Below are positions 143 to 13,636 of a stretch of 15,128 nt of DNA, in pieces. Made by a program: the position numbers and the translations under genes. The stretch's first letter is position 1; each line of letters starts with the position of its first letter. A model generated the notes under the pieces. That model saw only the letters and a program-made list of their open reading frames with translations. It was not told the origin of the DNA and searched no databases. This DNA is from a bacterium (GTDB lineage Bacteria; CSSED10-310; JAJRTK01): positions 1 through 15,128 of the forward strand of contig JAJRTK010000002.1 in the NCBI GenBank assembly GCA_024278345.1, given 5' to 3'.

Positions 143-340
143 AAGCCCTGCCAGGGGCCGGATGCCGAGCAGAGCGAGACGCGGCCCACAGGGCCGCAGC
201 CGGAGTCCCCGAACGACCGCCGAGTAACGCGAGGCGTTACCCTTCGAGTCACGCAAACGTGACCCGCCGAGCGGAGCGCGGCGTTGTCCGAGGCCAAGTT
301 TTTTCCCCGGCGACCATTGTCCCGCTTTGCGTGGATACCC
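143..340 (+). mobile_element. Alpha element copy 1, right part (MITE-like)
   Basis: This is the right-hand part of an alpha element whose left part is separated from it by the gamma copy at 1-142. It begins with AAGCCCTGCCAGGGG, found inside alpha copy 2 at 478-492, and ends with a terminal repeat at 319-340 (GTCCCGCTTTGCGTGGATAC plus CC). Internal hairpins include GCGGCCC-ACA-GGGCCGC at 181-197 and GTAACGC-GAG-GCGTTAC at 224-240. The second matches the hairpin of copy 3 at 2184-2198, with a T-A pair in place of C-G. Small open frames run through it but are repeat by-products. Alpha copy 2 begins only 6 bases after its end. Confidence 0.75.
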
Positions 341-346
341 GGAAGA

Positions 347-612
347 GGGTATCCACCTAAGCCGGGACACGCAACAAAACCCAAAAAAGACGCGGAGCGT
401 ACAAAAACGTGGGCTGGGCTCCCGTTGCCCTTCGTTGCAACGGGAAGATGAGCTCGCTCCCTGGTGGGTGCAGGGTGAAGCCCTGCCAGGGGATGGAATC
501 CCCGGACGACCTACGGGTAACGCGCGGCGTGACCCGCCAAGCGACAGCGAGGCGTTGCCCGAACGCTTTCGATTCCACAGTCCCGGGAATGTCCCGCCTT
601 GCGTGGATACCC
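347..612 (+). mobile_element. Alpha element copy 2 (MITE-like)
   Basis: This 266-bp non-coding element has 22-bp imperfect inverted ends at 347-368 (GGGTATCCACCTAAGCCGGG plus AC) and 591-612 (starting GTCCCGCCTTGCGTGGATAC). The flanks CCGGAAGA (339-346) and CTGGAAGA (613-620) form an 8-bp direct repeat with one mismatch, read as a target-site duplication. Inside are an A-rich leader, ACGCGGAGCGTACAAA and hairpins: CCCGTTGC/GCAACGGG at 421-444, GCAGGGT-GAA-GCCCTGC at 470-486, GGGGAT-GGA-ATCCCC at 489-503, and a 9-bp stem with one mismatch at 515-535. It ends 29 bases from the stop codon of the GT4 gene. No transposase is present, so mobility must have been supplied from elsewhere. Confidence 0.8.
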
Positions 613-2034: not shown

Positions 2035-2245
2035 GGGTATCCACGCAAGGCGGGACAAAACGAGAAACAAAGAGACAGGCGCGAAGCGCCCCACCACGTG
2101 GGTCCAGGGAGCGAGCTCCCTGGTGGGTGCAGGGCGACGCCCTGCCAGGGGACGGGGGACGGAGTCCCCGAACGACCGCCGAGCAACGCGAGGCGTTGGT
2201 ACGACGCAAGATAATACCGAATTGTCCCGCCTTACGCGGATACCC
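2035..2245 (+). mobile_element. Alpha element copy 3, intact, with exact 8-bp target duplication
   Basis: This 211-bp element is the clearest alpha copy. Its 22-bp inverted ends (2035-2056, starting GGGTATCCACGCAAGGCGGG, and 2224-2245) match at 20 of 22 positions. ATCGGACC occurs exactly at 2027-2034 and 2246-2253, a perfect 8-bp target-site duplication. The interior is a row of hairpins: GGCGC-GAA-GCGCC (2078-2090), CCAGGGAGC-GA-GCTCCCTGG (2104-2123), GCAGGGC-GAC-GCCCTGC (2129-2145), GGGGAC-GGA-GTCCCC (2155-2169) and CAACGC-GAG-GCGTTG (2184-2198). It encodes no recognisable protein. Several bacterial IS families make 8-bp duplications (for example ISL3, IS66, IS256), so the mobilising enzyme cannot be named. 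Confidence 0.9.
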
Positions 2246-4523: not shown

Positions 4524-4653
4524 CCGGAAATTTCATCAAAAACCTACTGCGACGTCTGCTCCATCGGCGTCGCCTTCGGGTGTTCTCGCTAGCGGTCGGC
4601 CCCCACCGGCGTTTTCGTCGGTCGGAGATCCGGAGGCGCAGTACAAGATTACG
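4524..4653 (+). repeat. Delta repeat, single-ended copy
   Basis: This segment resembles 8518-8614. Shared blocks include TTTCATCAAAA near the outer end, TACTGCGACGTCTG against TTGCTGCGGCGTCTG, and TTCGTCGGTCGGAGATCCGG against TTCGTCGGTCGGACATCTGG. This copy has roughly 35 extra bases in the middle. Its outer end, CCGGAAATTTCATCAA, matches the inverted ends of the full delta element, but I find no partner end in 4640-4815, so it looks truncated. It begins two bases after the sulfotransferase stop. Open frames on the minus strand here encode Arg-rich peptides like those from the other copy, and are judged non-coding. Confidence 0.55.
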
Positions 4654-8514: not shown

Positions 8515-8728
8515 GGCCAGGAACTTTCATCAAAAGCTTGCTGCGGCGTCTGACCCATTGTCTCCAGCGGCGTCTTCGTCGGTCGGACATCTGGAGGCGA
8601 AATGCGGGACTACGGCGACCGTGTCCGCCTGTTCACCTTTGGTGTATCTCCGCTGCGCTCCAGTTCTCATCCTTGGTGGAAACGCCCGCAGACTGCCTCG
8701 CGACGATCCTTGATGAGAGTTCCGGGTC
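8515..8728 (-). mobile_element. Delta element with inverted ends
   Basis: This 214-base stretch has imperfect inverted ends. The left end is GGCCAGGAACTTTCATCAA (8515-8533). The reverse complement of the right end (8710-8728) is GACCCGGAACTCTCATCAA, matching 15 of 19 positions. Its left part is repeated at 4524-4653. I find no convincing target duplication in the flanks. The interior lacks the A-rich leader and ordered hairpins of the alpha and beta groups. It covers the false N-terminal extension of the methyltransferase frame. The gamma target duplication begins one base after its right end. Mobility is inferred only from the ends and the second copy. Confidence 0.5.
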
Positions 8729-8738
8729 TGAGGGTGAA

Positions 8739-8893
8739 GGGACCTATTCAGATCCAGTTGACAACACCACCGCTGGGGCGGGCCTCCTTCCCGGCTCCGT
8801 GCAGCCCGGAGGGCGCTACACCGGCAAGATGCCGGTGCCACCGTTTCGGCGAAGAAAATTGTAAAGCAAAAACACGATAATTTGATAGGTCCC
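8739..8893 (-). mobile_element. Gamma element, complete copy with 8-bp target duplication
   Basis: This element of about 155 bp has GGGACCTATTCAGATCC at its left end. The reverse complement of its right end is GGGACCTATCAAATTATC: nine exact positions, then imperfect. GAGGGTGA occurs exactly at 8730-8737 and 8894-8901 and is read as the target-site duplication, with one extra A at 8738. The interior has GCCC-GGA-GGGC (about 8805-8815) and CACCGGCA-AGA-TGCCGGTG (about 8820-8838). The body repeats bases 1-142 in the opposite orientation. It lacks the alpha/beta core, so it is a separate group that shares only the duplication length and hairpin style. Confidence 0.8.
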
Positions 8894-8965
8894 GAGGGTG
8901 AGTAATCGCTCGGCCAGCCGAATGTTACGTTGTAGCCTCGCTGCCGGAATTTGTTTCGCTGAGTC

Positions 8966-9162
8966 GGCTTGGTCCATCGTTTCGGCCACCCAGTGAATTA
9001 CGGGCCTGGCGCCCAGGCCTCCGGCCCCGGACCCCGGCGGAGGCTCCGCCTCCGGACCTTCGCCAGGAGCGCTGCTCCTGGACCTCGCCAGGAAGCTAGC
9101 TCCCTGGACCCCTCTTTGTACGCGACGCGTTTTTCGAGAGGGTGGCCGAAACGATGGACGAG
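8966..9162 (-). mobile_element. Beta element copy 1 (MITE-like) with 8-bp target duplication
   Basis: This 197-bp element has a perfect 20-bp inverted repeat, GTCCATCGTTTCGGCCACCC, at 8972-8991 and, inverted, 9140-9159. The outermost bases are less regular. GCTGAGTC is repeated exactly at 8958-8965 and 9163-9170. The left 26 bases align without gaps with the left end of beta copy 2, supporting the boundary. Read on the minus strand, the interior has CGAAAAACGCGTCGCG, TACAAAGA, GGGTCCAGGGA and hairpins at 9063-9081, 9038-9054 and 9003-9019. This is the same order as beta copy 2 read on the plus strand. The right end is 2-3 bases shorter than expected, so that edge is approximate. Confidence 0.82.
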
Positions 9163-9492
9163 GCTGAGTCTAACAGCTTCCGGTATTCCTTCGGAATGCT
9201 TTGCCTCGGGCATCAAGATCCGCTTCGCTCCTTTCTTTTGGGGGCGATTTGACACGAATTGCGCCACGCCAACGGATGGATGAGGGAAACTTGTCAAGTT
9301 TCATGATGCAGGGGAGATCGCCATCTGCTCGTAGAGTGTAGGATTGTGGGTCTGATATTTCAAACTCAAGGTCCGAGAAGACGCAGGGTCGTAGGTGGAG
9401 GACAAATAGGGCTGGAGAAGTGGGAAAGGTCGGCCATTTTGAAATCTTTTGTCCGGTAAGGAGGTTTTTTTGCGGGAGAGGCGGCATTGGAG
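9163..9492. other. Spacer without a convincing gene
   Basis: In these 330 bases I find no recognisable gene, RNA or terminator. A strong ribosome-binding-like site TAAGGAGGT lies at 9457-9465. The TTG at 9470 after it opens only an 8-codon frame, whose TGA overlaps the ATG of the small ORF at 9493. Minus-strand frames here run into beta copy 1 and show no family I know. Confidence 0.45.
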
Positions 9493-12916: not shown

Positions 12917-13636
12917 TCAAGCAACCCTGGGACTTTGGGATGTTTGCCCAGAAAAGTCGTCATGGGGGCAACCCAGTGGGAATCCAGTAGATTCGAGAAG
13001 TCGCATTCTCAAGGTCGATAGGCTCTGCTGAGCCCCATGGGAGGCCATCACCACTCGGTCGAGGTGGCTGAGGCGCAGAAACTGGTTCAACGGTCGGATT
13101 CCCGCCTGACTCATCCGCCCGAAGCATAACTGGGCGGCTACTACGAGCTGATGGACGAAAGCGAGGCCTCGGTCATGGTACCGGCCACCCGAAAAAAGCG
13201 CGCAGCGCACAAAGATGTGGGTCCAGGGATCTGGCTCCCTGGCGTGGGTCTGGGAGCGGCGCTCCCAGCGGAGGTGCCGGAACCGGAGCGGAGCGTAAGC
13301 GCAGCGGAGATAATCGCCGTAGGCGATATCCGGAGCCTCCGCCGGGTTCCAGGGCTGGAAGCCCCGGGGCGGCGTCTGAAATCTGAACCGTGGCCGGTAC
13401 CATGACCGAGGCCGAAAGCGATTCCCTGAGGACTTTCGAGGAAATCGGCCAATCGGGCCGCTGTCCAGCGACTGCTTGTGTGCTTGCCAGTGTTGCAGGG
13501 TGGTTCGGGCTACGCTCGTTTCTCGTTTGAACTGGCGCATGGGAAGTGCCTTGTCTTCGGGCGGACTCCAACTGGATGAGCTTTGCCGCAGCCTTCTTGC
13601 GAGCAACGCCATTGCCTCCCCCGGCTCCACTTTCAA
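12917..13636 (-). pseudogene. DUF6399-like (transposase-like) gene fragment, interrupted
   Basis: Read from 13636, the N-terminal part (RQFKRETSVARTTLQHWQAH, then LDSGPI) resembles the start of proteins I recall as DUF6399, which look transposase-like. A one-base shift near 13449 leads to ADFLESPQGIAF. There the frame is broken by beta copy 2 (13165-13413). Beyond it FVHQLVVAAQLCFGRMSQAG continues, then LNQFLRLSHLDRVVMASHGA. Removing the element and one target copy joins these as ESPQGIAFVHQLVVAAQL. Similarity seems to end near 12989, so most of the normally much longer protein is missing. The gene is dead by insertion, frameshift and truncation. Family assignment rests on remembered sequence pattern. 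Confidence 0.7.
13165..13413 (+). mobile_element. Beta element copy 2 (MITE-like) inserted in a gene
   Basis: This 249-bp element has perfect 24-bp inverted ends at 13165-13188 (beginning GGCCTCGGTCATGGTACCGG) and 13390-13413. GAAAGCGA is repeated exactly at 13157-13164 and 13414-13421. It splits the DUF6399-like reading frame, and excising it with one duplicate restores the coding sequence, which proves insertion. The interior starts GAAAAAAGCGCGCAGCGCAC, then AAAGATGTGGGTCCAGGGA. Hairpins follow at 13223-13242 (TCCCTGG stem), CTGGGAGC-GGC-GCTCCCAG (13250-13268) and ATCGCC-GTA-GGCGAT (13313-13327). No protein is encoded. Confidence 0.92.

Follow-up and report, generated by a model that had tools for sequence, protein, structure and literature searches.

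A row of short hairpins forms the interior of a small MITE-like mobile repeat in a bacterium of the CSSED10-310 lineage

Several families of small non-autonomous DNA transposons (MITEs) have been described in bacteria, including NEMIS/Correia, ERIC, YPAL, RUP and Nezha (PMC3733652), which are 70–300 bp long and non-coding, are bounded by terminal inverted repeats (TIRs) of 15–30 bp, occur in many copies and have interiors that fold strongly. REP/BIME sequences, which are associated with RAYT transposases, are short GC-rich palindromes of high copy number, and some are arranged in rows. Rickettsia palindromic elements (RPE) and enterobacterial RU elements, as outlined in two accounts (PMC3733652; PMC2759123), are palindromic mobile repeats, some of which lie within reading frames, while intrinsic (Rho-independent) terminators combine a GC-rich hairpin with a T-rich tail on one strand. 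Each of these shares features with a row of hairpins in the DNA analyzed here, a stretch of 15,128 nucleotides (the window) from contig JAJRTK010000002.1 of assembly GCA_024278345.1; the likeness to terminators extends to a part of the copies.

The row is the interior of a small, parasitic, MITE-like mobile repeat and not of a host gene. The element is 211 bp long (2035–2245). A 23-bp TIR that we designated TIR-A (GGGTATCCACGCAAGGCGGGACA, 2035–2057, plus strand) and its inverted copy (TGTCCCGCCTTACGCGGATACCC, 2223–2245, minus strand) enclose the hairpins, and an exact 8-bp target-site duplication, ATCGGACC, is found on the left (2027–2034) and on the right (2246–2253). The left end is followed by an A-rich linker (2058–2077) and then, on the plus strand, by HP1 (GGCGC-GAA-GCGCC, 2078–2090), an extra hairpin seen in the fold of this copy (CCAC-CAC-GTGG, 2091–2101), HP2 (CCAGGGAG-CGAG-CTCCCTGG, 2104–2123), HP3 (GCAGGGC-GAC-GCCCTGC, 2129–2145), HP4 (GGGGAC-GGA-GTCCCC, 2155–2169) and HP5 (CAACGC-GAG-GCGTTG, 2184–2198).

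The initial annotation had reported five hairpins at 2078–2198, and these are present and fold beyond chance expectation. The RNA fold of 2030–2250 (221 nt) has an energy of −108.3 kcal/mol, compared with −81.4 (sd 4) for dinucleotide shuffles (z −6.7; 0/200 as low), and the DNA fold of 2070–2205 has a z of −3.5 (0/200 as low). Both contain HP1–HP5 and the copy-specific CCAC-CAC-GTGG, and in the RNA fold the two ends of the element form a long outer stem. The second hairpin, first read with a GA loop, has a four-base CGAG loop in the fold. Three-base G-N-N loops are common, as had been noted, but are not invariant: across copies, HP3 has GAA (84) or AAA (56), HP4 has GGA in most copies but also AGC (24) and AGA (8), and HP5 has GAG (66), GCG (31) or ACG (11).

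The genome (6.06 Mb in 550 contigs, 88% complete) contains 413 matches to TIR-A ends at ≤3 mismatches, and none to the reversed pattern. TIR pairs were read in 1.5 of the 6.06 Mb, in stretches mostly chosen by matches and often ending at contig ends. Among the 95 TIR-A pairs lying ≤6 kb apart, 20 have an exact 8-bp duplication, where about 0.001 would be expected by chance (arithmetic estimate), and 26 have one with ≤1 mismatch; other lengths from 4 to 12 did not fit, in pairs preselected for an 8-bp duplication. Elements with duplications are 169–294 bp long, apart from one 646-bp composite, and nothing larger than 646 bp was seen at spacings up to 6 kb. A covariance model of the row matched all 150 scored candidates, giving at least 150 matches in the genome. 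The ends were absent from 59 other genomes searched, seven of the same phylum among them, and exact TIR-A ends were not found in genome_contigs. Neither the hairpin DNA nor the covariance model was found in the seven other genomes of the phylum, and no second genome of the source organism's class is in the collection. The features by which MITEs are recognized (TIRs of 15–30 bp, a target-site duplication, short length, no transposase gene and many copies) are all found here, and the row very probably belongs to a non-autonomous DNA transposon (MITE), of which a trans-acting, DDE-type transposase has produced hundreds of copies. The MITE identity settles what the row is, and it bears on the assembly, which is interrupted by copies at many places: many contig ends fall inside TIR-A copies.

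The three 'alpha' copies distinguished in the initial annotation correspond to a partial TIR-A element (copy 1; 186–340, plus strand), with its right end at 318–340 and its left part missing or replaced, a second complete element (copy 2; 347–612, plus strand) with the duplication CCGGAAGA/CTGGAAGA (7/8), and the element at 2035–2245. Other repeats are also evident. A stretch of about 105 bp, ACCATGAAAGTACATGG...CATGCTCGTTA, splits TIR-A at an identical position in three or more copies (about 2717–2821 of the window; L253; about 9210–9340 of L011). In at least one of them it is flanked by TA on either side, and it is a case of one repeat inserting into another. Positions 1–134 and 8748–8881 of the window are an inverted pair (134 bp, 96% complementary) of a further dispersed repeat, and a pair of direct repeats (about 40 and 51 bp, ~80% identity), likewise dispersed, occurs at 4526–4653 and 8520–8614. 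Single hairpin units have multiplied in tandem to three to four copies at L012:16151-16482, L017:9808-10164 and L028:420-666, possibly a footprint of replication slippage.

Four predicted genes have TIR-A elements inserted in frame (L037:3008-3206, L043:4011-4179, L015:5790-6021 and L012:15085-15367). They encode an Omp85-domain protein, a TPR membrane protein, a methyltransferase and a protein with no Pfam match, and in all four the length of element plus duplication is divisible by three and the frame is left open. The 26 TIR-A elements with duplications have on average 2.7 stop-free frames, compared with 1.0 in shuffles and 1.7 in shorter, GC-matched intergenic pieces, an excess that is not independent evidence because the copies are related.

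The hairpin payload is common to TIR-A and at least one other inverted-repeat family of the genome. In the window, a perfect copy of a TIR-B element (TIR GGCCTCGGTCATGGTACCGGCCAC; 13165–13413, plus strand) carries the same kind of payload and has the duplication GAAAGCGA on both sides. The same kind of row is also found in an element on the minus strand (8966–9162; TIR GGCTTGGTCCATCGTTTCGGCCACCC), with a duplication, GCTGAGTC, read by eye at 8958–8965 and 9163–9170, and this element is possibly a diverged TIR-B. TIR-B duplications are 8 or 9 bp long, and one copy interrupts an ISL3 transposase gene. When mismatches are allowed, the TIR-B scan gives 146 matches and its reversed control 61, a high background, so only copies with duplications should be counted.

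A transposase with TIR-A ends was not found among the four families tried in this incomplete genome. IS1595 (PF12762) is represented by two relics with no adjoining TIR-A end, and the sole TIR-A match in the 10-kb stretch around the relic at C322 is ~3.8 kb away. DDE_Tnp_1 (PF01609) gave one short, ISAs1-like fragment at a contig end with no matching end nearby, IS256 (PF00872) was absent from the genome search, and the ISL3 copy (PF01610) at C5, the one split by a TIR-B element, has no adjoining TIR-A end. The autonomous partner may lie in the unread part of the genome, or may have been lost.

It is very improbable that the row consists of REP-like hairpins that a RAYT (Y1) transposase recognizes as single-stranded DNA. 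Small, multicopy GC-rich palindromes would suit such a system, and there is a RAYT-like gene at C390, but Y1 transposition produces neither 23-bp TIRs nor 8-bp duplications, both of which the elements have. The Y1_Tnp match is missing in seven of the twelve row-carrying genomes, and the palindromes carried by the C390 gene are GTAG-tagged and of other sequence; this locus (L253, G000:C390) has the motif MPDHVHGI, a Y1_Tnp match below the cut-off and two copies of the tagged palindrome. A GTAG/CGTC foot tag is lacking from the row itself, in which rows start with GGGTCC and have a TGGGT spacer. Nothing points to the recognition of single-stranded DNA that was suggested at first, for which RAYT is the recognizer known for hairpins of this sort.

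The paired changes quoted in the initial annotation (GGGGAC/GTCCCC to GGGGAT/ATCCCC, and CAACGC/GCGTTG to TAACGC/GCGTTA) are in the sequence and recur in a larger set of copies. At the innermost pair of HP4, 98 of 160 copies have C-G, 53 T-A, two C-A and one T-G, and at one pair of HP5, 67 of 126 copies have T-A and 44 have C-G. In an alignment of 58 distinct complete rows, 94.1% of the cells are paired, compared with 37–49% when partners are slid by 1–3 columns. Seven pairs are changed on both sides (1–4 slid; shuffled mean 4.8, 19/500 shuffles as high), as are 52 cells (1–9 slid; 0/500 shuffles as high), with the caveats that related sequences may exceed shuffles without any structure, and that the slid control, while preserving relatedness, is biased towards a structure derived from those very sequences. 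Covariation between copies thus exceeds both controls. The two-sided changes involve three pairs of HP4, where they are clearest, three of HP5, which also has alternative pairings (85% of cells paired), and the innermost pair of HP2, but none of HP3, where changes are one-sided and mostly G-T. The rows are mosaics, with alleles of HP2, HP4 and HP5 found in many combinations, so the hairpins move as modules and represent few independent events; such events are few because the row lies inside a mobile element, whose copies share recent ancestry and swap modules.

Similar rows occur far beyond the source genome, in several unrelated bacterial phyla. At least 71 stretches of genome_contigs match the exact pattern GTCCAGGG-n-CCCTGGTGGGTnCAGGG-n-CCCTG, whose first hairpin corresponds to HP2. 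Among the matches listed, the carriers include Magnetococcales, Acetobacteraceae, Rhodospirillales, Desulfovibrio, Solidesulfovibrio, strain Smac51, Clostridia, Chloroflexi, Dehalococcoidia and the actinomycete Actinorhabdospora filicis, and several of these genomes hold many copies. A shorter motif matched 29 stretches of viral_contigs, compared with two for a reversed, equally palindromic control. No similar rows were found in plasmids by blastn, and in a literature search for the motif, the papers listed were all unrelated. The covariance model built from the source genome detected rows in 26 of 26 loci tested, matches that are not independent because the loci were chosen for the motif. In the first hairpin, the outer pairs are fixed by the exact pattern itself, but the inner pairs are not. 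Among the matches listed, the first of these was Watson-Crick in 44 of 47 distinct genome-variant cases and G-T in three, and the second was Watson-Crick in 34 of 34, a comparison that spans about two dozen other genomes and includes all four Watson-Crick types. TIR-A type ends were not seen in the examined flanks of these rows, and the repeats in other carrier genomes extend differently. We put forward, at a little under an even chance, that the row GTCCAGGG-n-CCCTGG-TGGGT-nCAGGG-n-CCCTG is a structural module in its own right, belonging to a seemingly undescribed family in at least six bacterial phyla, that it keeps its pairing while the inner sequence changes, and that in the source genome it is the payload of unrelated MITE families. 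Its recurrence across phyla may reflect common descent, horizontal spread or convergence. If the module is real as a family, it would provide a natural test set for separating selection from template switching as the source of covariation, and would explain a class of unnamed intergenic hairpins.

Copies that have already landed show a different picture. Private variants (present in one or two copies) are about as dense in stems as outside them (0.95 and 0.84 per column), so there is no detectable protection of the fold in copies already in place. Variants present in at least three copies are scarcer in stems (0.34 per column, 0.96 outside; Fisher p 0.0075). This deficit has p < 0.05 in seven of nine cut-off settings when stems are compared with all unpaired columns, but in one of nine when compared with linkers alone, and arises mainly because the loops are hypervariable. 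Stem decay at the neutral rate, which the initial annotation named as counting against selection, appears to hold for landed copies, whereas variants that went on to be copied retain pairing better. The covariation exists, but it belongs to the mobile element, whose decay seems unconstrained in copies that have landed. This combination is predicted both by selection on source copies and by repair through template switching. The comparison separates two things that are usually merged in covariation tests of repeats: the maintenance of pairing among spreading copies, and ordinary decay after landing.

Paired changes can arise and persist without selection through template switching, a mechanism known for RNA genes (PMC8794818). 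That it produces the paired changes within these hairpins, making selection for the fold unneeded, is possible, at well below an even chance. It would account for the innermost HP4 pair, where C-G has been replaced by T-A at bases three apart with hardly any intermediates, and some copies have hairpin modules duplicated in tandem. However, a neighbouring pair passed through a mismatch that itself spread, from A-T to C-T (16 copies) and then C-G (9), and in HP2 the number of reverse-complement loop pairs (three, with ~1.9 expected; manual count) is not in excess of chance. Selection for the fold, as first proposed, is upheld to the extent that paired changes exceed the controls and inner pairs are kept in other genomes, but resident copies have no detectable stem protection and template switching could also explain the changes.

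Rather unlikely is that the row is all or part of a transcribed, structured RNA working in the host, with compensatory paired changes. In addition to pairing above both controls and the nearly standard inner pairs of other genomes, the one-sided changes of HP3 comprise 74 G-T cells and four A-C cells on the plus strand, as expected if that strand is the RNA. This excess, although suggestive in HP3, was not accepted as proof of RNA selection: it comes from few distinct variants (five vs one shared and six vs nine private; Fisher p 0.15), and the bias is not clear in the viral-contig set. Rfam 15 gave no match above the gathering threshold, either for the window or for 15 loci from other genomes, and the stems of resident copies are unprotected. 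The genes adjoining 182 rows, called by simple codon usage, have no orientation bias relative to the row (upstream, 54 same and 59 opposite; downstream, 52 same and 49 opposite), so there is no sign of an RNA role in cis for the host.

Gene orientation bears equally on whether these are ordinary bidirectional transcription terminators of host genes. The GC hairpins are strong and there is a T-rich tail on one strand, but with orientation random and several copies within reading frames, this is improbable. On the minus strand the linker forms a T-rich tail behind HP1, where pattern matching gave one terminator-like match (2091–2077), and in 20 of 26 elements the 25 nt that follow the left end include at least 12 A. 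Because of this tail and linker, a terminator-like reading is favoured for the selective version of events, and by these simple pattern matches it is a candidate function of the row.

The MITE reading suggests the following sequence of events. A DDE-type transposase would act in trans on the 23-bp ends and make 8-bp target duplications, a few source elements would supply the payload copies, and recombination between copies would reshuffle the hairpins. The fold would be maintained in source copies and lost at the ordinary rate after landing. Two causes could maintain it, and we give them about equal weight. One is that source copies are selected for a structured transcript that acts like a terminator and protects the element or its neighbours against read-through; the other is template-switch repair during replication, in which one hairpin arm is rewritten from the other.

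Among the described systems, the MITEs NEMIS/Correia, ERIC, YPAL, RUP and Nezha are set apart, by their descriptions, from an element with these ends and an 8-bp duplication, whose interior is a set of several short hairpins, most with three-base loops, common to TIR families. The element differs from REP/BIME sequences in having TIRs and target duplications, and in lacking a GTAG/CGTC tag and a consistent RAYT. In contrast to RPE and RU elements, to which it is likened by description, most of its copies are intergenic, although the four TIR-A copies in genes leave the frame open. Unlike intrinsic terminators, the row has several hairpins, is mobile and is not placed relative to genes.
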